Source: a virus | Length of the DNA stretch: 34,720 nt | IMG/VR virus record: IMGVR_UViG_3300033148_004724 | Span: 1-34,720 of that record | Reading direction: 5' to 3' (one strand) | In this document: one piece after another, positions 1 through 34,720 of the stretch | Layout of the letters: each line of letters opens with the position of its first letter | Numbering within the stretch: position 1 is the stretch's first letter | Translations under genes and position numbers: made by a program | Notes under the pieces: generated by a model | What the model was told of the DNA's origin: nothing | What the model saw: only the letters and a program-made list of their open reading frames with translations | Databases searched by the model: none

Positions 1-94
1 TAACTAAAGTAACACTGTAGTCATATAATTCTTGGCCTTCATTCGTGAAATGATTAGACTGTATTCCCTCTATATGTTTTCTAGTGATTTCCAT
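1..94 (-). CDS. Partial duplicate of sigma factor gene start (assembly overlap)
   Basis: The start codon lies at 92-94 and the reading frame runs off the left edge. It is the same sequence as 34607-34700, so it is not a second gene but the other side of the circle junction. The upstream promoter region (95-430) is complete only on this side. Confidence 0.85.
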   Translation of the reverse strand, partial: MEITRKHIEGIQSNHFTNEGQELYDYSVTLV

Positions 95-114
95 ATTCTT
101 CCTTTTATTATAAA
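1..114. repeat. Left copy of 114-bp terminal direct repeat
   Basis: Bases 1-114 are identical to 34607-34720. The repeat carries the first 94 coding bases of the sigma factor gene plus 20 bases of its leader, so it cuts through a gene. This points to overlap at the ends of a circular or circularly permuted assembly rather than a functional long terminal repeat. A true short terminal redundancy is possible. Confidence 0.9.
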
Positions 115-376: not shown

Positions 377-431
377 TATCTCTAGTACCTCCTCTCCTTC
401 TTTTAAAAACTAGAGAAAAAAACTAGAGATA
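377..431 (+). promoter_or_regulatory. Structured 5' leader covering the primase start codon
   Basis: TATCTCTAGT (377-386) is perfectly complementary to ACTAGAGATA (422-431), whose last base is the A of the primase ATG. A second copy of ACTAGAGA at 409-416 can pair with the same upstream arm. The two pairings exclude each other; one hides the start codon and the other leaves it free. The loop includes a pyrimidine tract (387-404). Confidence 0.5.
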
Positions 432-1738
432 TGGAAAACAACAAAAACATTACAGTAGTACAAGATTTTACAAGTTTAAAGTATAAAATACTTACTTGTG
501 ACTTAAAAGATACAATTCAAAAAATTAGCTCAAAGCATAAATTTTTCACTTTAATTACTCAAGCTAGAAAAATAAAAGAAGTAGAGGGAAAATCGAAAAG
601 ATATAAAGATACTAGAAGGTCTATTCCTGGAATATGCTGGTCAGCAACATTTCCAACTCAAAAGAGAACAATAGAACAAGCAATACCAACAGGGTTATTG
701 TATATTGATATTGATATTGATATTACAAGAGAAGAGATTTTAGCTAATCCTATTGGTAAATATATAATAGCTTTATGGCGTTCAATAGGTGGTGATGGTT
801 TTGGGGGGATAATAGAATATTCACCTACAGATACTCCATTTAAAGAGGTATATACTCAACTTAATAAAATATCAGGAAACATTTTAGACAAACAGTGTTG
901 TGACATTACAAGAGTTAATTTCTTATCATATGATGATAATATGTACTTAAACTACAGTGCTGACGTGTATTTAGCAAAAAAGAGCTCATCCCTTAGTAAT
1001 GGAGTACAAAATAATTCTATAATAAATGACGTTTTTTGCAATGTAACAACTACACACGCCTTTAATAATAAGGATTACAGAGAAAAGAGCTCATCCCTGA
1101 GTATTCCTTCTCCTTCTCCCTCCAATTACTCAGGGATGAGCTCTTTTTCACATCAGTTTAAAAACACTAATGCTGGAGACTATGTTGTAGAAGGAGAAGA
1201 GTATTCTGTATTCCCCCAAGGAGTTGAAGTAGAGAAATGTTATTTACCACGCAGAATAAAGCGAGGAGAGAGACGAAGTGTGTTATTATCATACTTCACC
1301 ACCTTTTTTAGAATAAACCCTCACAAATTTAGCTATAGACACATCTACGCTACTATTAAACAAATAAGTAATAAGATGGAAGGTGGAATGTTAGAAGAAA
1401 AGAAGATAAAGGGGATATACTTAACTTTGAAAAAACAAATAGAGACAAATGGATTAACTCTTAATGAAAAATCACTTATAACAAGAAAAATTATCTTTTC
1501 TGACAATTGCACTTACTCTAAAAATAAAAAAAGAAAAACTGTAAACAAAGTGATTGGAAAATTGAAATCTCAAAAGACTGAGGATAAAATTCAAATCTTT
1601 TTTGAAGATGAGGTTGCTAATATGACTAAAATAAATTACAAAACAATTGCTGATGCTATTGGAATAAGTGTTGCTACTTTAAAAAGAAGAATGACTGAAG
1701 AGCAAAAAGAAACAATTAAACATTTAAAAACTAAATAA
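431..1738 (+). CDS. BT4734/VirE-N-like primase, probable replication initiator
   Basis: 435 aa. The N-terminal ~180 residues look like the BT4734/VirE N-terminal family (archaeo-eukaryotic primase-like): LLYIDIDID carries the acidic metal-binding motif and GGDGFGG sits where the family has its Gly-rich SxSGxG-type strand. Residues ~180-255 are a low-complexity Ser-rich linker encoded by the repeat cluster at 978-1147. Residues ~275-345 (IKRGERRSVLLSYF onward) resemble a PriCT helical domain, and the C-terminus has a helix-turn-helix (YKTIADAIGISVATLKRRM). It is the only recognisable replication protein in the genome and is first in the rightward operon, so it probably starts replication and recruits host enzymes. 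A (TATTGA)n microsatellite at 703-724 encodes the DIDIDI part. Confidence 0.7.
   Translation: MENNKNITVVQDFTSLKYKILTCDLKDTIQKISSKHKFFTLITQARKIKEVEGKSKRYKDTRRSIPGICWSATFPTQKRTIEQAIPTGLLYIDIDIDITREEILANPIGKYIIALWRSIGGDGFGGIIEYSPTDTPFKEVYTQLNKISGNILDKQCCDITRVNFLSYDDNMYLNYSADVYLAKKSSSLSNGVQNNSIINDVFCNVTTTHAFNNKDYREKSSSLSIPSPSPSNYSGMSSFSHQFKNTNAGDYVVEGEEYSVFPQGVEVEKCYLPRRIKRGERRSVLLSYFTTFFRINPHKFSYRHIYATIKQISNKMEGGMLEEKKIKGIYLTLKKQIETNGLTLNEKSLITRKIIFSDNCTYSKNKKRKTVNKVIGKLKSQKTEDKIQIFFEDEVANMTKINYKTIADAIGISVATLKRRMTEEQKETIKHLKTK
978..998 (+). repeat. Iteron-like element copy A (direct)
   Basis: Contains AAAAGAGCTCATCCCT; it matches copy B (1083-1103) in 20 of 21 positions (T for G at 994). It lies in the linker-coding part of the primase gene, in frame with Lys-Lys-Ser-Ser-Ser-Leu-Ser. 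Confidence 0.75.
1083..1147 (+). repeat. 21-bp perfect inverted repeat inside primase gene (copies B and C)
   Basis: Arms 1083-1103 and 1127-1147 are perfectly complementary over 21 bp; the loop 1104-1126 starts with 20 pyrimidines. The right arm ends in TTTTT (1144-1148), so as RNA it looks like an intrinsic terminator. As DNA it is two inverted copies of the element also present at 978-998. Possible roles are an embedded origin (as in lambda O), a terminator/attenuator, or a small inserted element; the sequence alone does not decide. Confidence 0.8.
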
Positions 1739-1744
1739 ATAATT

Positions 1745-2368
1745 ATGAAAAGAAAAATTAAAAGAAGAGTGACTCATAAAGATATGAGTTATTTAAGAGA
1801 ATATTTAGATTTTGTATATAGAATTGGTAAGCCAGAATTATATTTTACTATTAATGGAGAAAAAAATGATTTATTTGATAAATTTAAAAATACTAATTGT
1901 GTATATATGATTGAAGATTTTTACATAGGTAAAAGTAATAGATTATTTATGCGATGTTTAAATCACATAAATGAATGCGATGAAGATGTTCAAAATAAAG
2001 AAAAAAATAAAAAAATTTTAAAAATATTGAATAGTGGAAAAAAACTTAAAATAAAAATAATATCAGATAACGCTGATGATGAAAAAGAATTGATACAAAG
2101 TTATTTTCTTGATGGATATCCATTAGTAAATAAAGTATTTATTTATAATAGCAAAGGTGATGTTGTTAAAGATTTATTAGAAGATGAAAGATTTGATTTG
2201 AAAAAAGTAAAAATAATTAAAAAGAAAACAAAGAAAAAAAAAGAAAATAATTTTAAATCACTATATAAAGATTTAACAAAAAGTAAAAATGTAAAAATTG
2301 AAGAAGATGGTGGTATTGATTTAAAATGTGGTGTAATTATATTTGAAGATGGAACTATACAAATATAA
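1745..2368 (+). CDS. GIY-YIG nuclease-like protein
   Basis: 207 aa, starting 6 bases after the primase stop, so probably cotranscribed. Residues ~50-130 fit the GIY-YIG fold: C52-V-Y54 replaces GIY, Y60-I-G62 is intact, R70 and H74 sit at the expected distance (RCLNHI), and an acidic stretch (DDEKELIQSYF) follows where the family has its catalytic Glu. The C-terminal third is Lys-rich and of unknown role. The gene is even more A-rich than its neighbours, with many AAA and AAT codons. It could be a repair or resolving nuclease or a homing-type endonuclease. The fold is fairly convincing; activity is not, because the first motif is degenerate. Confidence 0.6.
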   Translation: MKRKIKRRVTHKDMSYLREYLDFVYRIGKPELYFTINGEKNDLFDKFKNTNCVYMIEDFYIGKSNRLFMRCLNHINECDEDVQNKEKNKKILKILNSGKKLKIKIISDNADDEKELIQSYFLDGYPLVNKVFIYNSKGDVVKDLLEDERFDLKKVKIIKKKTKKKKENNFKSLYKDLTKSKNVKIEEDGGIDLKCGVIIFEDGTIQI

Positions 2369-2449
2369 ATATTCAAAAAGTATCACAACCCCTATTATGC
2401 TCAAAAATCAATAGATACGAAGATAAAAACCTTATTAAAAAGATAACTA

Positions 2450-2848
2450 ATGAAAAAAGGAAAAGCAGGTAGAAAAGATAAGATGATAAAATATAATCAC
2501 GACAGGTTTACCATAACAATAAGAACAATACAGGATGACCCCACAAGCAATCCGTTTATGGTTATATCTTGGAGGAATTGGCATAATACCCCAGAGGAAT
2601 TAAAAGTCTTCTCAGAGAGGCTTAAAATAGTTCTAAGAGCTAATTCAGAAAAACTCTTTGAAGGTAATCTTATTAACTCGGAGCATCATATATACATAAC
2701 CGACTTCTCCTTATATCATAAAAAAAATGCTTTTTGTCAGATTGAATATTACATTTATTTAAAAAAAGAAAAAAATTTTGAAGAAATTTATGCAGACTTA
2801 GGAGAGATGTGTGAACTGACACTCAATGAGTTAGAGAAAACCTGTTAA
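2450..2848 (+). CDS. Hypothetical protein, 132 aa
   Basis: I do not recognise a family. It begins with a basic patch (MKKGKAGRKDKMIK) and is followed by an alternating beta/alpha pattern with no signal peptide or membrane segment. It uses fewer A-rich codons than the GIY-YIG gene just upstream. The 80-base gap ahead of it contains no clear promoter, so it may share the primase transcript. The stop codon overlaps a short dyad (TGTT AAAA AACA, 2843-2854), of which a similar form follows the genes ending at 3251 and 4883. Confidence 0.7.
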   Translation: MKKGKAGRKDKMIKYNHDRFTITIRTIQDDPTSNPFMVISWRNWHNTPEELKVFSERLKIVLRANSEKLFEGNLINSEHHIYITDFSLYHKKNAFCQIEYYIYLKKEKNFEEIYADLGEMCELTLNELEKTC

Positions 2849-2879
2849 AAAACATATAAAGTTTTCTTGTTTTTTCTTG

Positions 2880-2922
2880 CTTTTGGATTACTTTTTATTT
2901 ATTTTTACCTATATATTATAAA
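2880..2922 (+). promoter_or_regulatory. Candidate early promoter, type CTTTTGGATWA/TATATAT
   Basis: CTTTTGGATTA (2880-2890), then a 19-base T-rich spacer ending in ACC, then TATATATTATAAA (2910-2922). The same two boxes with the same 19-base spacer occur at 4915-4958. Both precede a new gene group. The consensus is not the usual Bacteroidota -33/-7 pair, so a phage-specific variant is possible. Confidence 0.5.
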
Positions 2923-2931
2923 CAGCAGATG

Positions 2932-2971
2932 TGGAGAAGTTTACTTCAGACATTTTCTTCTCCACTGAAGT
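2932..2971 (+). promoter_or_regulatory. Leader with two interleaved inverted repeats
   Basis: TGGAGAAG (2932-2939) pairs with CTTCTCCA (2957-2964), and ACTTCAG (2943-2949) pairs with CTGAAGT (2965-2971). The 5' arm of the second stem lies inside the loop of the first, so the two hairpins exclude each other unless a pseudoknot forms. They sit at the very start of the expected transcript. Confidence 0.5.
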
Positions 2972-2987
2972 TTAAAACTTAACAACA

Positions 2988-3251
2988 ATGAAAACAAAAG
3001 CAAGAAGAGAACAAAAGACATCAATTGAAGAGAAGAGGTTTACAGCTACTGTAACAGGTAAAGAAAAACTAAAGGAAGGATACTTCAAAATTTATCTTGA
3101 TGATGGTACAAAGAAGATATGGAAGGATGGAGATGGCCATTATATGTTAGCTGATAGACCTTACTCATTTACTCAGAAGTTTTATAATCATAGAGGACAA
3201 GTAATTGTAAGAATATTAAACGTTGAACGTGAATATCATTCTTTTGGATAA
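2988..3251 (+). CDS. Hypothetical protein, 87 aa
   Basis: Small basic soluble protein with no family I can name. It starts with a Lys/Arg-rich segment and continues as short beta strands (FTATVTGKEKLKEGYFKIYL, then DDGTKKIWKDGDGHY), suggesting a small beta-barrel or OB/SH3-like fold. It has its own promoter (2880-2922) and a structured leader, and appears to be the only gene before the next promoter at 3289, which suggests independent control. Such monocistronic early genes in phages often act on the host, but nothing in the sequence proves that. Confidence 0.7.
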   Translation: MKTKARREQKTSIEEKRFTATVTGKEKLKEGYFKIYLDDGTKKIWKDGDGHYMLADRPYSFTQKFYNHRGQVIVRILNVEREYHSFG

Positions 3252-3280
3252 TATGTTGTAAAACATTTATGGATTAAAAA

Positions 3281-3302
3281 TTTTAGACTATATATAATAA
3301 AC
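3281..3302 (+). promoter_or_regulatory. Candidate early promoter
   Basis: A T-rich stretch followed by ACTATATATAATAAAC. It shares the downstream box with the promoters at 2910 and 4945, but the upstream CTTTTGGATWA box falls at 3241-3251, inside the end of the preceding gene and at a longer distance, so that half may be chance. Confidence 0.4.
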
Positions 3303-3310
3303 AATTAAAG

Positions 3311-3341
3311 CTTGGACATAATATCTAAGTTAGTGTCCAAG
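3311..3341 (+). promoter_or_regulatory. 5' leader stem-loop
   Basis: CTTGGACA (3311-3318) and TGTCCAAG (3334-3341) form a perfect 8-bp stem with a 15-base loop, starting about 9 bases after the TATATATAATAAAC box. It probably lies at the 5' end of the transcript for the gene at 3362 and may protect it from decay. Confidence 0.5.
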
Positions 3342-3361
3342 TAAACAATAAAATAGAAACA

Positions 3362-3586
3362 ATGAAAAAATTTGAAGCAGAAAAAAACAAAAGAGATTTT
3401 AATGTTTGCTCAGCAAAAACATTGAGAGATATGCAAGTTTTTTATCACAAGAACATTAATAAAAAAGAAGCAATTAGATTATTTGATGATGCATTTGATT
3501 TAAGTAAAATGCATACAATCGTAACCCCCGACTTAACAACTTGGATAATTATTGATGGTGTTGTACAAGAGGGGGTATTAAACTAA
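3362..3586 (+). CDS. Hypothetical protein, 74 aa
   Basis: Small protein with no recognised family. The N-terminal half is Lys-rich and helical (MKKFEAEKNKRDF), and the C-terminal half reads as two beta strands (TIVTPDLTTWIIIDGVVQ). It is the first gene after the promoter and stem-loop at 3281-3341, and is followed after 15 bases by the gene at 3602, so the two are probably cotranscribed. Confidence 0.65.
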   Translation: MKKFEAEKNKRDFNVCSAKTLRDMQVFYHKNINKKEAIRLFDDAFDLSKMHTIVTPDLTTWIIIDGVVQEGVLN

Positions 3587-3601
3587 TAAAAATAGAAAAT
3601 T

Positions 3602-4114
3602 ATGAAATTATTTAGAAAAAGAAAAGAAAGAAAAGCTATTGAAAGAGATGTGGCTTTTAGGTTAGAAAAGCACCTTAAAGAAAAAACAGAAAGTTTAAAA
3701 GATGTTAGCTTATGTGTGAATTATGACATGTTTCAAAAATACTATAAAAAAGGAGAATACTATTTTAATTTACTTTTAAGTGATGGTAAAAAACTTTATA
3801 CTCCTAATCCTTCTTTAGTAAAAAATGAAATACAAATTACAAACAAAATTGTTGAAGTTATAAAAGCCTTCATCATTTATAAATTAGAAATTGAAGCTTA
3901 TAATACATATCATGTTACTATCTCTGGTGAAATTTATCAAAAACCATTTAAGCAAAGTAAAGAAATTTCTGCTTTAATAAAAGCATTAAAAAAATTATGT
4001 GATGATGAAAATAATTTAGTGTTAAAAATGGCATTAAAAGAAATTTATGACACAATTGAAAAAGTGAGATTAGAAAATAATTATATGGGGAAAGAATTAA
4101 ATAAAAACAAATAA
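3602..4114 (+). CDS. Hypothetical protein with MKLFRKRK start, 170 aa
   Basis: Lys-rich, mainly helical soluble protein without a recognised domain. Its first eight residues, MKLFRKRK, are shared exactly with the product of the next gene (4117), though the rest differs. It is very A-rich at the DNA level. The 2-base gap to the next gene indicates tight coupling. The shared basic N-terminus could be a membrane- or nucleic-acid-contacting tail, or a relic of gene duplication. Confidence 0.65.
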   Translation: MKLFRKRKERKAIERDVAFRLEKHLKEKTESLKDVSLCVNYDMFQKYYKKGEYYFNLLLSDGKKLYTPNPSLVKNEIQITNKIVEVIKAFIIYKLEIEAYNTYHVTISGEIYQKPFKQSKEISALIKALKKLCDDENNLVLKMALKEIYDTIEKVRLENNYMGKELNKNK

Positions 4115-4116
4115 CT

Positions 4117-4584
4117 ATGAAACTATTTAGAAAAAGAAAATCAATTTTCGATAATTATGAAGAAAATGTTATATTATTAAAGAATAAAATAGCAAATGAA
4201 ACATATAGAGAAATAGACGATATACAATTAGTCGTAGATAGTTGTAAAAAAGAACTTAATATAAGAGTAGGTGTTAAAACGGGAAATTACTATGAATTTA
4301 AAATTTTTATCGGTGATGATTTGCATTGTTCTACTGATATCTCAATGAGAATTCTTGAAGAAATTACTAGTGGTATAATAAAAAATGACACAAGAGTTAG
4401 AGAATATAAGATTTTAGATAAGTATATAGTTGATAATATATATAAATGGGAAGATGATATTCTTATAAAAAACAAAAAATTTAAAGAAGATGCTGTGATG
4501 AGATGGCTTGAATTAAGGGACGAATTCAACTTATTCGGTTCAACAATAACATATTTTTATAATAATTTTATAGAAGAATATTAA
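4117..4584 (+). CDS. Hypothetical protein with MKLFRKRK start, 155 aa
   Basis: Shares the basic N-terminal octapeptide MKLFRKRK and the corresponding 24 bases, with one change, with the preceding gene. Downstream of that it has a beta-rich stretch (DIQLVVDSCKKELNIRVGV) and a helical C-terminus, and no membrane segment. No family recognised. It is cotranscribed with its neighbours judging from gaps of 2 and 20 bases. Confidence 0.65.
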   Translation: MKLFRKRKSIFDNYEENVILLKNKIANETYREIDDIQLVVDSCKKELNIRVGVKTGNYYEFKIFIGDDLHCSTDISMRILEEITSGIIKNDTRVREYKILDKYIVDNIYKWEDDILIKNKKFKEDAVMRWLELRDEFNLFGSTITYFYNNFIEEY

Positions 4585-4604
4585 CAACAAAAAAACAAAT
4601 AACC

Positions 4605-4883
4605 ATGAACAAAGAAGGAAATTTTAAAGAAAATAATTTAAAAGACTATCTGGAAGAAAAATTCTCAGGAAAAGCGAAAAATCTAGATGAAATAAACCCA
4701 GTAGCTATGTTGCAGAATATGGCTACTGAACAGAAGAAAGTAGAAAAGGGGAAGTTTACAGTGAACATTCCCCCACAAAAAATCCAAGAATTCAAGATTA
4801 TATGTAAACAAAATGGATTAAAACAGAATTTTATTATAGAAAAATTAATCACACAATGGATTGATGAACAGAAAGTTATATAA
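4605..4883 (+). CDS. Ribbon-helix-helix DNA-binding protein
   Basis: 92 aa. The last ~45 residues (GKFTVNIPPQKIQEF, then KIICKQNGLKQNFIIEKLI) match the beta-strand, helix, turn, helix plan of ribbon-helix-helix proteins such as ParG/CopG types, with the strand FTVNI expected to enter the DNA major groove as a dimer. The first half is polar and probably unstructured. Last gene of the 3362 group; the next promoter is at 4915. It is the only obvious small repressor candidate in the rightward unit and may act on the palindrome at 252-266 or the early promoters. Fold fairly likely, target unknown. Confidence 0.6.
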   Translation: MNKEGNFKENNLKDYLEEKFSGKAKNLDEINPVAMLQNMATEQKKVEKGKFTVNIPPQKIQEFKIICKQNGLKQNFIIEKLITQWIDEQKVI

Positions 4884-4914
4884 AACCTGTTATAAAACAT
4901 ATAAAATAATCATC

Positions 4915-4958
4915 CTTTTGGATAACTTTTTTCTTTTTTTTACATATATATAAATGAA
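4915..4958 (+). promoter_or_regulatory. Candidate early promoter, type CTTTTGGATWA/TATATAT
   Basis: CTTTTGGATAA (4915-4925), 19-base T-rich spacer ending in ACA, then TATATATAAATGAAA. Spacing and both boxes match the promoter at 2880-2922. It precedes the 107-aa gene at 4996. Confidence 0.5.
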
Positions 4959-4995
4959 AGCAGCGATAAAGCAGTTTTAATAAAAACAAACAACA

Positions 4996-5319
4996 ATGAA
5001 AAATAATGAAATGAAAAACTTAGTTTGCGATGCAATTAGTCACGCAAAAATAAATGAACAAATTTGGATAGAAGAAAAAAACAATAAAGATTTTGAACCA
5101 GCAATTAAAATATATCAAAATGGATTTATTGTTAGTATGTGGCATACTGCTGCTGCTCCCCAACATTACTGGATGAAAACAGTATTAAAAAAAGGATATG
5201 ATGAGTTGGGAGAATTTATCGCAGGAGAGCGCTATCAGACATTACAAAGTGCTACAAAAGAAGATTATGATTTGATGGCTGATGTTGTTATTTCAACTTT
5301 AAAACAACCTAAAGAGTAG
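4996..5319 (+). CDS. Hypothetical protein, 107 aa
   Basis: Soluble protein, family not recognised. It has a helical N-terminus, a central strand-rich part with aromatic residues (IYQNGFIVSMWHTAAAPQHY) and a helical C-terminus. It has its own promoter at 4915-4958, and its stop codon sits in a 7-bp hairpin (5314-5338), so it is probably expressed as a single-gene transcript. The first ATG is used; a second at codon 6 (MKNNEM) is an alternative. Confidence 0.65.
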   Translation: MKNNEMKNLVCDAISHAKINEQIWIEEKNNKDFEPAIKIYQNGFIVSMWHTAAAPQHYWMKTVLKKGYDELGEFIAGERYQTLQSATKEDYDLMADVVISTLKQPKE

Positions 5320-5338
5320 TGGGTTATAAAAACTACTC
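5314..5338 (+). terminator. Terminator-like hairpin at the end of the 107-aa gene
   Basis: GAGTAGT (5314-5320) pairs with ACTACTC (5332-5338) around an 11-base loop. The arm includes the TAG stop codon. What follows is ATTATATAT rather than a clean T-run, and it doubles as the next promoter box, so termination may be weak. Confidence 0.35.
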
Positions 5339-5352
5339 ATTATATATAAATA
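5339..5352 (+). promoter_or_regulatory. Possible promoter box before the 85-aa gene
   Basis: TATATATAAATAC at 5341 resembles the downstream box of the other rightward promoters, but there is no upstream CTTTTGGAT box and the start codon is only 11 bases further on. Confidence 0.25.
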
Positions 5353-5361
5353 CATAAATAT

Positions 5362-5619
5362 ATGTTTATTTTAAGAAGGCTGACGAGCCAAAACGCAGAA
5401 AGTAATACCAGTTTAGGTGCAAGTTATGTGCTAGTATTAGCAGACAGAAACCCAGAAGACTATGAGAAGTCTCTAAAGATTTTAAAATGTGATAGAGAAG
5501 ATGTTTATGGCTTCATTTCGCACAGTGAGGGAATGAAGTTAATCCCCCTCTATAAAAAATCACATTATTTTGTAATGACGGAGAGTGGTAAAACATTTGC
5601 AAATATTACATACAAGTAA
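5362..5619 (+). CDS. Hypothetical protein, 85 aa
   Basis: Small alpha/beta protein without a recognised family: two beta strands (ASYVLVLADR and SHYFVMTES) flank a helical part. No signal peptide. It is followed by a terminator-like hairpin at 5631-5657, which suggests a unit of one gene. Its codons are somewhat less A-rich than those of the flanking genes. Confidence 0.65.
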   Translation: MFILRRLTSQNAESNTSLGASYVLVLADRNPEDYEKSLKILKCDREDVYGFISHSEGMKLIPLYKKSHYFVMTESGKTFANITYK

Positions 5620-5630
5620 AATTAATTAAT

Positions 5631-5657
5631 GAGCCCTCTGATTATGGGGGTTCTTTT
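5631..5657 (+). terminator. Probable intrinsic terminator
   Basis: GAGCCC (5631-5636) pairs with GGGTTC (5648-5653) with one G-T wobble, and TTTT follows directly. It lies 12 bases after the stop codon of the 85-aa gene. Confidence 0.4.
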
Positions 5658-5663
5658 AACCTG

Positions 5664-5678
5664 TCTGGTTTTACCAGA
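5664..5678 (+). promoter_or_regulatory. Short hairpin ahead of the 112-aa gene
   Basis: TCTGGT-TTT-ACCAGA is a perfect 6-bp stem with a 3-base loop, 24 bases before the start codon at 5703. It has no T-run, so it is more likely a leader element than a terminator. Confidence 0.3.
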
Positions 5679-5702
5679 TGAAACAAATAAAAAAAAATAA
5701 CT

Positions 5703-6041
5703 ATGAAAAAAGAATTTAAAGAATTTAAAGAGCTATTAAATAACATAGACTTAGAAATTGAAGTAGATGAAGATTATGATGAAGAAGATTATGAAGCTAC
5801 AGAGAAAGGGAAGGAGTGTGTTTTTGAAGGTATATATAAATGTGTATTACCAGAAGAGATAGATATGCACTTAGAATATTATTCACGAAGATGTAAAGTT
5901 ATATTAACTTCAGATAGTTTAAAAAAAATATCTAAGGCTATAAAAGATTTTGACTTGTTTAAAACAAGTGAAAGGTGGATTGTGTTAACTAAATTAACAC
6001 TAACTGGAAGTTTAATAATTAAAATTTATAAACAAAATTAA
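5703..6041 (+). CDS. Hypothetical acidic protein, 112 aa
   Basis: The N-terminal third is highly acidic (EVDEDYDEEDYEATEKG), resembling DNA-mimic or flexible acidic tails; the rest is a mixed alpha/beta segment ending in strands (IVLTKLTLTGSLIIKIY). No family recognised. One base separates its stop from the start of the lipoprotein gene, so the two are probably translated from one message. Confidence 0.65.
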   Translation: MKKEFKEFKELLNNIDLEIEVDEDYDEEDYEATEKGKECVFEGIYKCVLPEEIDMHLEYYSRRCKVILTSDSLKKISKAIKDFDLFKTSERWIVLTKLTLTGSLIIKIYKQN

Positions 6042-6042
6042 G

Positions 6043-6417
6043 ATGAAAAAAACAATTATGATTTTATTAGCTGCAGCATTTATAATGGTTGCGGCAAGTT
6101 GTAAACAAGAAGTTAATATTTCTGAAGCAGATTTAACAAATACAACATGGCAAATAGAACCAGAAGAGTTTGACACACATGATGTTATTTTTGAATTTAA
6201 ACAATCGGAAGTTTTTCAAATAAAACATAATATAGATGCTGCGCCAATAGGTAAAGGGAGTTATTTTATTATTGATGATATGTTAACAATTTCATATTTC
6301 GATACTATATTTCAAGAGCAACTTACATATTGTAATAAAATTGTTAAATTTAATAAAGAAATTTTAATACTTGAAAATGAATATACACAGATAAAACTAC
6401 ATCGTATTAACAATTAA
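6043..6417 (+). CDS. Phage-encoded lipoprotein, lipocalin-like
   Basis: 124 aa. A lipoprotein signal peptide is clear: MKKTIMILLAAAFIMVAASC has a charged N-region, a hydrophobic core and the lipobox Ala-Ala-Ser-Cys with the modified Cys at 20. The mature part starts with the short helix and TTWQIE strand typical of small Bacteroidota lipocalin-like lipoproteins and continues as beta strands (IFEFKQSEVFQIKH, GKGSYFIIDDMLTISYF). It is expected in the host envelope. As the last gene of the early-type operon, away from lysis and tail genes, it could alter the infected cell surface, for example to block superinfection; that role is inference. Confidence 0.7.
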   Translation: MKKTIMILLAAAFIMVAASCKQEVNISEADLTNTTWQIEPEEFDTHDVIFEFKQSEVFQIKHNIDAAPIGKGSYFIIDDMLTISYFDTIFQEQLTYCNKIVKFNKEILILENEYTQIKLHRINN

Positions 6418-17860: not shown

Positions 17861-19162
17861 TTATATTAAACTATCAATATTTAAAAATGCATTATCAATA
17901 TTACCAGTTAAATTAGTGTGTGTAACTTCTAACTCAATATAATCACCAGCATTTAAATCTATTGGAATAGTTGGTAATGTTAATGTATCATCTTCACCAC
18001 CATAATTACCTGATATTCTATTAGATAATGAAACAACATCTGTACCATTAATAATTATTCTACCAAAGATATTCCAAGTGCCACCACCTGTACTATCTAC
18101 ATCAACAGCATAATTTGCGTTTATTCTTGTTGGTATTTTACATACTAACATAGTTGTACCTGACCATTCAAATATTTCATCATTATCTTCGATAGGGGCT
18201 GAAGTAAATGGAATAGGTGTATAAGAAGTAAAATTAGAAGCATCCCAAGCACCTACTCGTTGAGCAACACTTGCAATTTTTAAACTTGATATTTTGCCCC
18301 AATATCCATAAGTACTTGCACCTACGTGAAGAAATTCTTCTGGATAAAATAACTTTTGTTTAGTATAACCTAATGGGAATGTATGTCCACTTGGTGTTAT
18401 AATATCACAATATCCACCAGTTGATAATTTATAAACATAATATGTAAACATTTTACCATTATTAGGTATTGTTGATTGTAAAGGTAAGTTAATTGTACAA
18501 GCAGTAGACATTACCATTAAAACTTCATCTTCAACAGCATCTAACGTATATGTTGAAGCTGTCACCATTGTAACTCTTTTTTGTGATGTGAAATGAGTTT
18601 CACCATTACATACAATATCTGTTGCAGTTAATTGATTTGAAATAGTTGTATCACCAGATGCATTTTCTAATACAACAGTACCATCTTCTGCTGGAAAAGT
18701 CCAATCATATGTTGTACCAGCGGTTAATGTAAAATTAATATTACCAAAAGCAGCAGCATCTGGAGAAGCTATTGCTATTTTACCATTACTAGTCCAACTC
18801 ATTGATTTCTCACTAGGTCCTGTCCCATTTCTCAAAATTACATCATTACTCAAAGATTTTAATATTAAATTACCACCACCATTTGGTGTAATATTATCAA
18901 TACCTAATGTGTTAGTTGATTGATTATATGTGAAAGCACTTTCAGCTCCAAATGAACCACTATCATTATATTGTATTTCTGTATCTGAACCTGATGGGGA
19001 AGTTGTGCCCCCTGTTAAGTTCGTTACATTAACTCTCAATGCATTATTTGTTTCATCGTGTACAGCTTGAAAGCATTCGTATGTATTATTTACATTTTGA
19101 AGTGCTAAAGTATCTCCAGTTAGAACTGATTTTAAAATTTCGTATGTGTTATTTTCACTCAT
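17861..19162 (-). CDS. Tail fibre/receptor-binding protein B, 433 aa
   Basis: The first ~50 residues (NNTYEILKSVLTGDTLALQ, NVNNTYECFQAVHDETN) are nearly identical to those of the next upstream gene (442 aa), indicating a common attachment domain, whereas the rest differs. The middle has fibre repeats (FTYNQSTNTLGIDNI) and the C-terminal ~150 residues form beta strands ending with GDYIELEVTHTNLTG, like a C1q/TNF-like knob. Probably one of a pair of alternative or combined adhesins. Confidence 0.65.
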   Translation of the reverse strand: MSENNTYEILKSVLTGDTLALQNVNNTYECFQAVHDETNNALRVNVTNLTGGTTSPSGSDTEIQYNDSGSFGAESAFTYNQSTNTLGIDNITPNGGGNLILKSLSNDVILRNGTGPSEKSMSWTSNGKIAIASPDAAAFGNINFTLTAGTTYDWTFPAEDGTVVLENASGDTTISNQLTATDIVCNGETHFTSQKRVTMVTASTYTLDAVEDEVLMVMSTACTINLPLQSTIPNNGKMFTYYVYKLSTGGYCDIITPSGHTFPLGYTKQKLFYPEEFLHVGASTYGYWGKISSLKIASVAQRVGAWDASNFTSYTPIPFTSAPIEDNDEIFEWSGTTMLVCKIPTRINANYAVDVDSTGGGTWNIFGRIIINGTDVVSLSNRISGNYGGEDDTLTLPTIPIDLNAGDYIELEVTHTNLTGNIDNAFLNIDSLI

Positions 19163-19181: not shown

Positions 19182-20510
19182 TTATTTTATTGTTACTTCT
19201 AATCCTTTTAAATCATAATCATCACTACTTCCAATACACTCATTATAAACTTGAACATAATCTCCTGTTTCTAATGTTAAATGATTTTGTAATGTTATGT
19301 TTTTTCTATCACTTGTTGTTGTTAATCTAACTTCACCTACTGGTTGATTTAAATCTAAACCATTTTTATATACAATAAATCTAAAAGTTCTATCTACTGC
19401 ACCTGTACCATTTGTGTGAATTGTTGCTGTAATAAACCCACTAAAATCTTCTATACCTATATAAGTTAGTTTGTTTAAAATACCATCGTGTGTAAAATTT
19501 TCATTTAATCCATTTCCCAATGTTGTACCAGTTATTAATTCGGGGGTATCAGCCACCAAATCTTGATTGGTTATTGCACTTAAATACATCCATCCCTGTG
19601 ATTTTGAATTAGGTATGTTACGATTATTTGATGCAAGTATTTGATTATTAGTTTGGTCAAGTCCTGTTGGAGAAAATGGAGTTCCCCCATAAGCTGTTAC
19701 AACATTAATTGAAGATATATCAACATAACCAGTATATCCAGAATGGATATTAATAATACTATCTCCAGCAATTGGAATAAATTGTGACATATGAAATCCA
19801 GTACTAAAATTGGCACCAAAAATATTAAAATGACTTCCTCCGATAGGAGCAACTGTTGAACTAACTGTAAATGCAATTATATTAACTACATTATTAGTCA
19901 TTGTTAATCCAGTTGTAAAAGTATTGAAGTTAACACTTCTAGTTTGGAAAATATTTTGTGCGTTAATTTCCCCCAAACTTCCAAAACCATTAATACTAGT
20001 TGAAAAAATTGAAAGGAGTTGAGCGCCTGTTCCGTTTAAATCTATAAAAGCATTTCCACTATCTCCATACGTACTAACTTTATCAACTATTAAAGTATTC
20101 CAATAATTTGTGGTATTAGCTCTAATAAATGCTCCAGAACCTGAATATGTTAAAGATAATAAATTACCATCTATTAAATTCTCATTTAAATTAGCTGAGG
20201 CTGTAGCTGTGGGGGCTATAGGATAACCTAATGTCATAGAATTACCAAATGAATATAACCCCTCAAGCCTATAAGCTAACCCAAGACCGTCTCCTAAATC
20301 TATAGGGGTTGGTAAATCACTTGGTGAATTAATTACAATCATACTTTCAAGCGATGGTTCTAAGTTTGAAACATTAACTCTAAGAGCTGCGTTTGTTTCA
20401 TCGTGAACTGCTTGGAAGCATTCATATGTATTGTTTACATTTTGAAGATTAAAAGTATCCCCCGTAAGGACATTCTTTAAAACTTCATATGTATTATTAA
20501 TTTCACTCAT
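19182..20510 (-). CDS. Tail fibre/receptor-binding protein A, 442 aa
   Basis: Shares its N-terminal ~50 residues (NVNNTYECFQAVHDETN) with the 433-aa protein and then diverges. Residues ~60-300 are rich in beta strands, Asn and Ser (ANLNENLIDGNLLSLTYSGS), suggesting a beta-helix stalk; the C-terminal ~130 residues (SGFITATIHTNGTG, FRFIVYKNGLDLNQPVG, GDYVQVYNECIG) resemble a jelly-roll head. Located in the four-gene fibre cluster. Confidence 0.65.
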   Translation of the reverse strand: MSEINNTYEVLKNVLTGDTFNLQNVNNTYECFQAVHDETNAALRVNVSNLEPSLESMIVINSPSDLPTPIDLGDGLGLAYRLEGLYSFGNSMTLGYPIAPTATASANLNENLIDGNLLSLTYSGSGAFIRANTTNYWNTLIVDKVSTYGDSGNAFIDLNGTGAQLLSIFSTSINGFGSLGEINAQNIFQTRSVNFNTFTTGLTMTNNVVNIIAFTVSSTVAPIGGSHFNIFGANFSTGFHMSQFIPIAGDSIINIHSGYTGYVDISSINVVTAYGGTPFSPTGLDQTNNQILASNNRNIPNSKSQGWMYLSAITNQDLVADTPELITGTTLGNGLNENFTHDGILNKLTYIGIEDFSGFITATIHTNGTGAVDRTFRFIVYKNGLDLNQPVGEVRLTTTSDRKNITLQNHLTLETGDYVQVYNECIGSSDDYDLKGLEVTIK

Positions 20511-32346: not shown

Positions 32347-32883
32347 CTATATTTTTTCTTTGATTTTGTTTCTCACTCTTTTTACAGCCTTCCACACAGT
32401 TGTGTAGGGTATACCAGTTAAATCTTCTATTTTTCTGTAGCTATATTTATTTAAGTAGTATAATTTAAATAGGAGGACTTCTCCGCTATCTGGGGGATAT
32501 TCTGTGTTAAGTATAGACATTACTTCATTATAATTTTCTTGTTGAATTGAATAGAATTGTTCATCATTTTGTTCTTGTTGGGGTTGGATGTAAGTTATTT
32601 CAAAATTATTCTGGTAATACAATTTCCCCTTTGCTATATATTTTTTATAGAAGGGGGAAGTTACACTGTTAGCTTGAGTGTGTATCACATACCCTAAGAA
32701 GTATTCTGTGTTTGCTGTAAATTGTGCCCACTCTAGGTTATAATTTAATTTATCATCCATATAATCTATTACATCGTGTAATAAATCTCCAGATAGTTCT
32801 TTTTTCGTTTTTAAAGATTTTTTGGCCATTCTAAGCAAATGGTCATATCTTAAGTTTATGTATTTTTCAAAGGTTTTATTCAT
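32347..32883 (-). CDS. Sigma-70 region 4-like HTH protein
   Basis: 178 aa. The C-terminal ~55 residues (SGEVLLFKLYYLNKYSYRKI, then EDLTGIPYTTVWKAVKRVRN) have the helix-turn-helix of sigma region 4. The N-terminal part is helical (YDHLLRMAKKSLKTKKELSG) but lacks a clear region 2. It may guide RNA polymerase to late promoters or act as a plain DNA-binding protein near the packaging genes. Located directly upstream of the zinc-finger gene. Confidence 0.65.
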   Translation of the reverse strand: MNKTFEKYINLRYDHLLRMAKKSLKTKKELSGDLLHDVIDYMDDKLNYNLEWAQFTANTEYFLGYVIHTQANSVTSPFYKKYIAKGKLYYQNNFEITYIQPQQEQNDEQFYSIQQENYNEVMSILNTEYPPDSGEVLLFKLYYLNKYSYRKIEDLTGIPYTTVWKAVKRVRNKIKEKI

Positions 32884-34151: not shown

Positions 34152-34700
34152 TTAATTATACTTTTCAACGAATTTTTTTATGATTTTTTTTGCTCTATGA
34201 ATTCTAATTCTCACATAACCTTCTGATTGACAGATTGTTTTAGCTATTTCTGAATAATATTTTCCTTCTAAAAAAAGTGTAAATATTTCTTTATCTACTT
34301 CATCGAGGGTTTGAATTGCTAATAAAACTAAGTCAAGCTTTTCGTTTTCTGGGGGATATATTGGTGGGACTGATACCATCTCATCACATTCTTCCCATTT
34401 AACATCATTAGCATTAATAAGTTCTCTTTCACTCTTTCGCATATAATCAATAAAACAATTCTTTGCTGTCTTATATAATAAACTACACCATACTCCTCCA
34501 TAATCTTCAAAGGTTGGATTGAGTGGGGGGAATTTGAATGATATGGCTGTTTTTGCTACAGCTTCGACTGCTACTGTTTCTTTGTTATATTGATTATATT
34601 TGTTTTTAACTAAAGTAACACTGTAGTCATATAATTCTTGGCCTTCATTCGTGAAATGATTAGACTGTATTCCCTCTATATGTTTTCTAGTGATTTCCAT
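34152..34700 (-). CDS. ECF-like RNA polymerase sigma factor
   Basis: 182 aa. Region 2 is at residues ~70-93 (WCSLLYKTAKNCFIDYMRKS, close to the usual tIArN..iDylRk) and region 4 at ~128-180 (LDEVDKEIFTLFLEGKYYSE, then IAKTICQSEGYVRIRIHRA). Both the -10 and -35 reading parts of a minimal sigma factor are present. It is the first gene of the leftward unit, so it could redirect host RNA polymerase to phage promoters. It crosses the end of the window, its start being repeated at 1-94. Confidence 0.8.
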   Translation of the reverse strand: MEITRKHIEGIQSNHFTNEGQELYDYSVTLVKNKYNQYNKETVAVEAVAKTAISFKFPPLNPTFEDYGGVWCSLLYKTAKNCFIDYMRKSERELINANDVKWEECDEMVSVPPIYPPENEKLDLVLLAIQTLDEVDKEIFTLFLEGKYYSEIAKTICQSEGYVRIRIHRAKKIIKKFVEKYN

Positions 34701-34720
34701 ATTCTTCCTTTTATTATAAA
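34607..34720. repeat. Right copy of 114-bp terminal direct repeat
   Basis: Exact copy of bases 1-114. It contains the start of the leftward sigma factor gene; joining the two copies gives one uninterrupted gene and leader and a unit genome of about 34,606 bp. Confidence 0.9.

Follow-up and report, generated by a model that had tools for sequence, protein, structure and literature searches.

A repeat cluster inside a BT4734-like primase gene as the candidate replication origin of an environmental phage

Does a cluster of three near-identical elements inside the primase gene of a small phage mark the place where replication of its DNA starts? For most environmental phages the origin is not known, and for BT4734-like primases no known origin was found in the literature. 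In the window, i.e., the whole stretch of viral DNA analysed here (34,720 nt), we consider it moderately probable that the cluster, located within the gene of the phage's own initiator-primase, serves replication in cis, most likely as the phage origin. If so, the linker of the primase would double as the origin, about half of the relatives would reveal their origin directly through an iteron array next to the primase gene, and both origin prediction and the helicase-less opening of DNA by primase initiators would become directly testable. An origin site within a gene is of a known kind; its use in the BT4734-like primase class appears to be undescribed in the open-licence papers searched.

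The first and last 114 bases of the window (1-114 and 34607-34720) are identical by sequence comparison. Hence, the contig closes to a circle of 34,606 bp and the phage genome is near-complete or essentially complete. Early genes occupy the + strand (431-6417), and the genes for lysis, head, tail and terminase lie on the - strand. Besides the primase, which is encoded by the first gene of the early operon (Table 1), the phage proteins scanned yielded no recognisable helicase, polymerase or further replication protein, which leaves the 435-aa primase as the only candidate initiator. The phage also encodes an Arc-like repressor (4605-4883). The late strand of this one small phage carries genes for two sigma-factor-like proteins (32347-32883 and 34152-34700, -). 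A 138-nt direct repeat (19016-19153 and 20361-20498, 78 percent identical) joins two neighbouring genes of 433 and 442 aa, which perhaps represent a duplicated structural protein.

Table 1. Positions of the primase gene, its protein domains and the repeat elements in the window.
Feature	Position	Strand	Remark
Initiator/primase gene	431..1738	+	435 aa; opens the early (+) operon
Archaeo-eukaryotic primase domain, BT4734-like, aa 1-187	431..991	+	Motif YIDID; assigned by profile and fold
Disordered linker, aa 188-272	992..1246	+	pLDDT under 50; contains nearly all of the repeat cluster
Helical part, aa 281-339	1271..1447	+	PriCT-like by position and shape only; moderate confidence
C-terminal helical domain with HTH-like segment, aa 383-434	1577..1732	+	Confident model; aa 400-422 match HTH profiles weakly
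R1, first copy, AAAAAGAGCTCATCCCTTAGTAAT	977..1000	+	Encodes KKSSSLSN right behind the primase domain
R1-R2 spacer	1001..1082		First half about 70 percent A+T
R2, second direct copy, AAAAGAGCTCATCCCTGAGTA	1083..1103	+	Small dyad CTCA-TCCC-TGAG inside
Loop, 23 nt	1104..1126	+	Initial 20 bases (1104-1123) pyrimidine only
R3, inverted copy	1125..1148	-	Core 1127-1147
Weak second cluster in the primase-gene leader	377..431	+	TATCTCTAGT and two ACTAGAGA flanking a pyrimidine run
Small gene with weak GIY-YIG nuclease match	1745-2368		Starts 6 bp past the primase gene

The cluster spans 172 bp from R1 to R3. R1 (core 978-998) and R2 are direct copies that agree in 20 of 21 positions, and R2 and the core of R3 complement each other perfectly over 21 nt, with a 23-nt loop between them. 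R1 and R3 can pair as well, with 23 of 24 nt matching over their full lengths. Thus, the description in the first-pass annotation of three 21-bp copies, two direct and one inverted, is correct in all its coordinates, and so is its statement that the last two enclose a loop opening with 20 pyrimidines. R1 and R2 are read in one frame and give KSSSLS. R3, in the opposite orientation, reads as a different peptide (YSGMSSFS), which argues that the conserved unit is the DNA and not the peptide. If the stretch between R1 and R3 is taken as an invertible segment, its inverted form, read by eye, meets a stop codon. The weak second cluster in the leader is possibly an operator or an accessory site. The word TCTCCTTCT has four copies genome-wide, including those at 393, 1109 and 1189 (-).

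No fourth copy of the element is present in the window even if three mismatches are allowed, and shuffled sequences contained 0.36 element sites on average and never three. Besides R2/R3, no perfect inverted repeat in the 34.7 kb reaches 20 nt; in 1,000 codon shuffles of the primase gene, the longest inverted repeat arising by chance measured 15 nt. A whole-genome scan in 300-nt segments found 30 inverted and 12 direct word pairs in the segment 901-1200; the segment overlapping it aside, the next-best inverted score genome-wide is 5. Shuffling this segment 500 times yielded at most 6 inverted and 8 direct word pairs, and it is the only segment of the genome combining strong direct with strong inverted repeats. 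Outside the phage, the 21-nt element had no copy in 84,980 genomes, the extended element was absent from viral contigs, and Rfam returned no match. A 16-mer of the element gave isolated single matches in viral contigs, whose flanks are unrelated or belong to one small conserved family. The segment GTTGGTCTATCGAAAAGAGCTCATCCCTCGAAGACTTTTTTG is conserved in several unrelated viral contigs (L004, L006, L008, L010, L011, L013); the 16 nt that it has in common with the element are probably due to chance.

The N-terminal domain of the encoded protein is supported as a BT4734-like archaeo-eukaryotic primase by four kinds of evidence. It weakly matches Pfam PF08800 with an E-value of 0.0027, just below the curated cut-off, and D93 and D95 of the YIDID motif (hhhDhD motif I) are invariant across 32 sequences. 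A tblastn search linked the domain to a protein annotated as BT4734/BF3469 that a Thiospirochaeta plasmid encodes (E 2e-6). The structure model of the 435-aa protein, built with 31 homologous N-domains, matches the folds of S-2L PrimPol (Z 8.3, 133 residues, 3.5 A) and of the RSF1010 RepB' catalytic domain with initiator DNA (Z 7.2, 151 residues, 4.8 A); Z-scores of such size can reflect common arrangements, and most of the better-scoring matches are primases. The C-terminal half found no sequence match in the phage collection, and a C-terminal fragment folded alone gave low confidence (pLDDT 57) and was left out of the results. The repeats occupy codons 183-240 and so fill the disordered stretch over its first two thirds. 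As this linker is predicted to be disordered, the DNA encoding it should be less bound by protein constraint. The first-pass annotation had placed the cluster in a linker between primase-like and PriCT-like parts; the PriCT-like flank is a helical region modelled with moderate confidence, and the protein has no Pfam match to PriCT.

Base composition was another suggested guide to the origin. The only feature of the GC skew is a flat, broad zone that runs from about 34.5 to 1.6 kb. This zone coincides with the switch in gene direction between two divergent operons; with gene orientation as a confounder, GC skew is uninformative and speaks neither for nor against an origin here. Counts of G and C at third codon positions show no difference across the repeats. 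Local A+T content at the repeats is 53-70 percent, which is not above the genome average, and a block of 85-90 percent A+T lies at 100-300.

We then focus on the relatives. The N-domain was found at 160 viral loci, which together with earlier matches gave 70 non-redundant homologues. Nearly all of them are fusions of 650-1,000 aa; the relatives encode helicase fusions of around 700 aa, an architecture unlike that of the window protein. Searches by primase, portal and terminase found no close relatives or distant ones only. Repeats within the gene are rejected as a family trait: conservation in related phages had been named as a check, and among the 69 other homologues in-gene repeats were seen in L057 alone. 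Its linker (L057:3176-3265) carries the word CCCATACAA six times, as three pairs whose 11-nt spacers have diverged. About 2 kb upstream, L057 also has an inverted array of the TGTGGCAAA type with units in both orientations, which is a better origin candidate than its linker repeats.

Beside the gene, the relatives are richer in repeats. At 30 of the 37 loci with strong clusters, the strongest one is located at one or the other end of the primase gene (6.2 expected). Two-orientation repeats within 350 bp past the stop codon accompany 26 of 60 primase genes, compared with 2 of 257 genes of other kinds (odds ratio 97, Fisher p = 2e-19; one test per gene, 60 non-redundant phage contigs), with an array threshold chosen after a first look at the surroundings of primase genes and a gene-level control run separately. 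The array-bearing loci include L026, L051, L147, L169, L175, L024, L058, L059, L070, L128 and L138. Their units (e.g., TGTGCCAAC, GGTAGTAA, GTTACAGA, GATGCAACT and GGTTGACA) are 8-10 nt long, usually occur in 3-9 copies and often begin at the stop codon. Judged by form and position, the arrays after BT4734/VirE-type phage primase genes are likely a family-wide origin. No paper on iterons with VirE-type phage primases was found among the open-licence papers searched, in which both the gene-adjacent arrays and origin use in this primase class appear to be undescribed. As a possible sign that the primase reads the iterons, iteron-word similarity was compared with primase similarity; the two correlate at r = 0.21, but single-copy words correlate equally well (0.27), so that the comparison carries no weight either way.

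The window resembles these loci in that repeats in both orientations, spread over about 100-300 bp in the relatives, are tied to a homologous primase gene. It departs from their pattern in that its repeats are 21-24 nt long and inside the gene of a protein that is not a helicase fusion; the next gene follows 6 bp downstream, and no comparable array is found there. The window repeats share no unit with the iterons of the relatives and are longer and fewer. Given these differences in length and number, we do not claim homology of the sites. Nevertheless, distant relatives keep similar arrays beside the matching gene, suggesting that the window cluster is most likely the replication start. In the simplest account, the window element does the same job as the arrays of the relatives, but from inside the gene. 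The candidate origin put forward in the first-pass annotation is hence still the best-supported reading, carried by the DNA-level repeats, the disordered linker, the sole recognised replication gene and the arrays of the relatives, whereas the lack of conserved in-gene repeats among the homologues speaks against it.

The strongest rival to an origin is an operator, at which the protein's own HTH or the Arc-like repressor would bind R1-R3 and limit early transcription by roadblock or looping. The small dyad CTCA-N4-TGAG in every element, the repressor encoded by the phage and the weak inverted cluster in the leader are consistent with such autoregulation. Yet the cluster is located 550-720 bp into the gene with no copy at the promoter region or elsewhere, and the two-orientation arrays of the relatives are mostly found after the gene and not at the promoter, so that we regard a purely regulatory site as rather unlikely. 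Transcription might also be limited at the RNA level, as the first-pass annotation had considered, if an R2/R3 hairpin with U5 acted as an attenuator or terminator that halts part of early transcription and thereby restrains initiator synthesis. The RNA hairpin is indeed very stable (z = -7.5 vs. shuffles) and is followed by TTTTT. This option is nonetheless less likely, given that the loop of 23 nt is long, the U-run lies within the stem, opposite the A-run of R2, and R1 is left without a role. Furthermore, the hairpin is absent from a scan for short-loop terminators (loops of 3-8), and translating ribosomes would melt it. Altogether, we judge termination quite improbable.

A different origin of the repeats themselves would be the in-frame insertion of a palindromic or miniature mobile element with R1 and R3 as its boundaries, comparable to the Rickettsia palindromic elements. 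Terminal inverted repeats of 24 nt (23 matching) enclose 124 nt, and the linker is a site that tolerates inserts. On the other hand, the small inserted element envisaged earlier has no dispersed copies, neither in the 84,980 genomes nor, apart from the isolated 16-mer matches, in viral contigs; 172 bp is not a multiple of three, and the flank repeat is just the 2-nt CA. We therefore hold an insertion to be very unlikely. Least of all do we expect the cluster to be a product of chance or an artefact of sequencing or amplification, e.g., a template-switch palindrome. Inverted repeats with a short spacer are a known product of strand switching, but three separate copies are present, complementarity ends sharply at 21 nt, the frame is open over 435 codons and the shuffle probability is negligible.

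How could an origin at R1-R3 work? By analogy, we infer a scheme in which the 435-aa protein, as the product of the first early gene, would recognise R1-R3 via its C-terminal HTH and helical part. Binding might then open the DNA, or the R2/R3 hairpin might become exposed or extruded. The N-terminal primase domain could lay the first primer on the exposed strand beside the R2/R3 stem. Host helicase and polymerase would subsequently take over, a recruitment that we infer from the fact that no phage helicase or polymerase was recognised.

Several known systems share parts of this arrangement. Within the 164-bp minimal ori of phage lambda, four 19-bp iterons adjoin a part that is A+T-rich and strand-asymmetric (PMC4488673). 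As in lambda, where ori lies in gene O, the window has repeats of this kind within the initiator gene, namely three nearly identical elements, each about 20 bp long, within about 172 bp that include a pyrimidine tract. In contrast to lambda, the protein is primase-type and not O-like, one of the three copies is inverted so that a perfect hairpin forms, and the repeats have no clear flanking A+T-rich block above the genome average. Consequently, the parallel to lambda O drawn in the first-pass annotation applies to the location and not to the protein family, which is closer to RSF1010 RepB', ColE2 Rep and pRN1 ORF904.

The ssi sites of RSF1010 are located in oriV, not inside the primase gene. 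Iterons (RepC), helicase (RepA) and primase (RepB') are separate in this plasmid, unlike in the window, and ssiA/ssiB are 40 nt long. RepB' primes at the hairpin ssi sites, and a linker connects its two domains, which bind independently (PMC4434180). Besides the fold match of the primase domain, the window resembles it in a two-domain primase with a flexible linker and in a hairpin as the putative DNA priming site. The helicase-less initiators ColE2 Rep, RepE/RepS and PrimHYQ are thought to open DNA via a PriCT-HTH module (PMC5862659). For the window, the model suggests a comparable plan of AEP, helical PriCT-like part and HTH-like end, with no helicase recognised. Its AEP is BT4734-like by profile, a type left outside the clades of these proteins in PMC5862659; its PriCT-like part gave no profile match, and its candidate origin lies in the gene. 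Finally, the origin required by pRN1 takes the form of a stem-loop, with a stem of 21 nt at 75 C, and a similar layout has been proposed for some phages (PMC4234260). A primase-type initiator and a stem of 21 nt are common to both, whereas pRN1 has its stem-loop, with a loop of 58 nt, downstream of the gene, and ORF904 includes a helicase. Taken further, a helicase-less BT4734-like primase might start replication alone from an origin in its disordered linker by binding R1-R3 and priming at the R2/R3 hairpin, and BT4734/VirE-type phage primases might more broadly form a class with gene-abutting, two-orientation iteron arrays as origins, a combination that we put forward tentatively and consider somewhat doubtful as a whole. 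The gene-adjacent iteron arrays of the relatives are the broader result.
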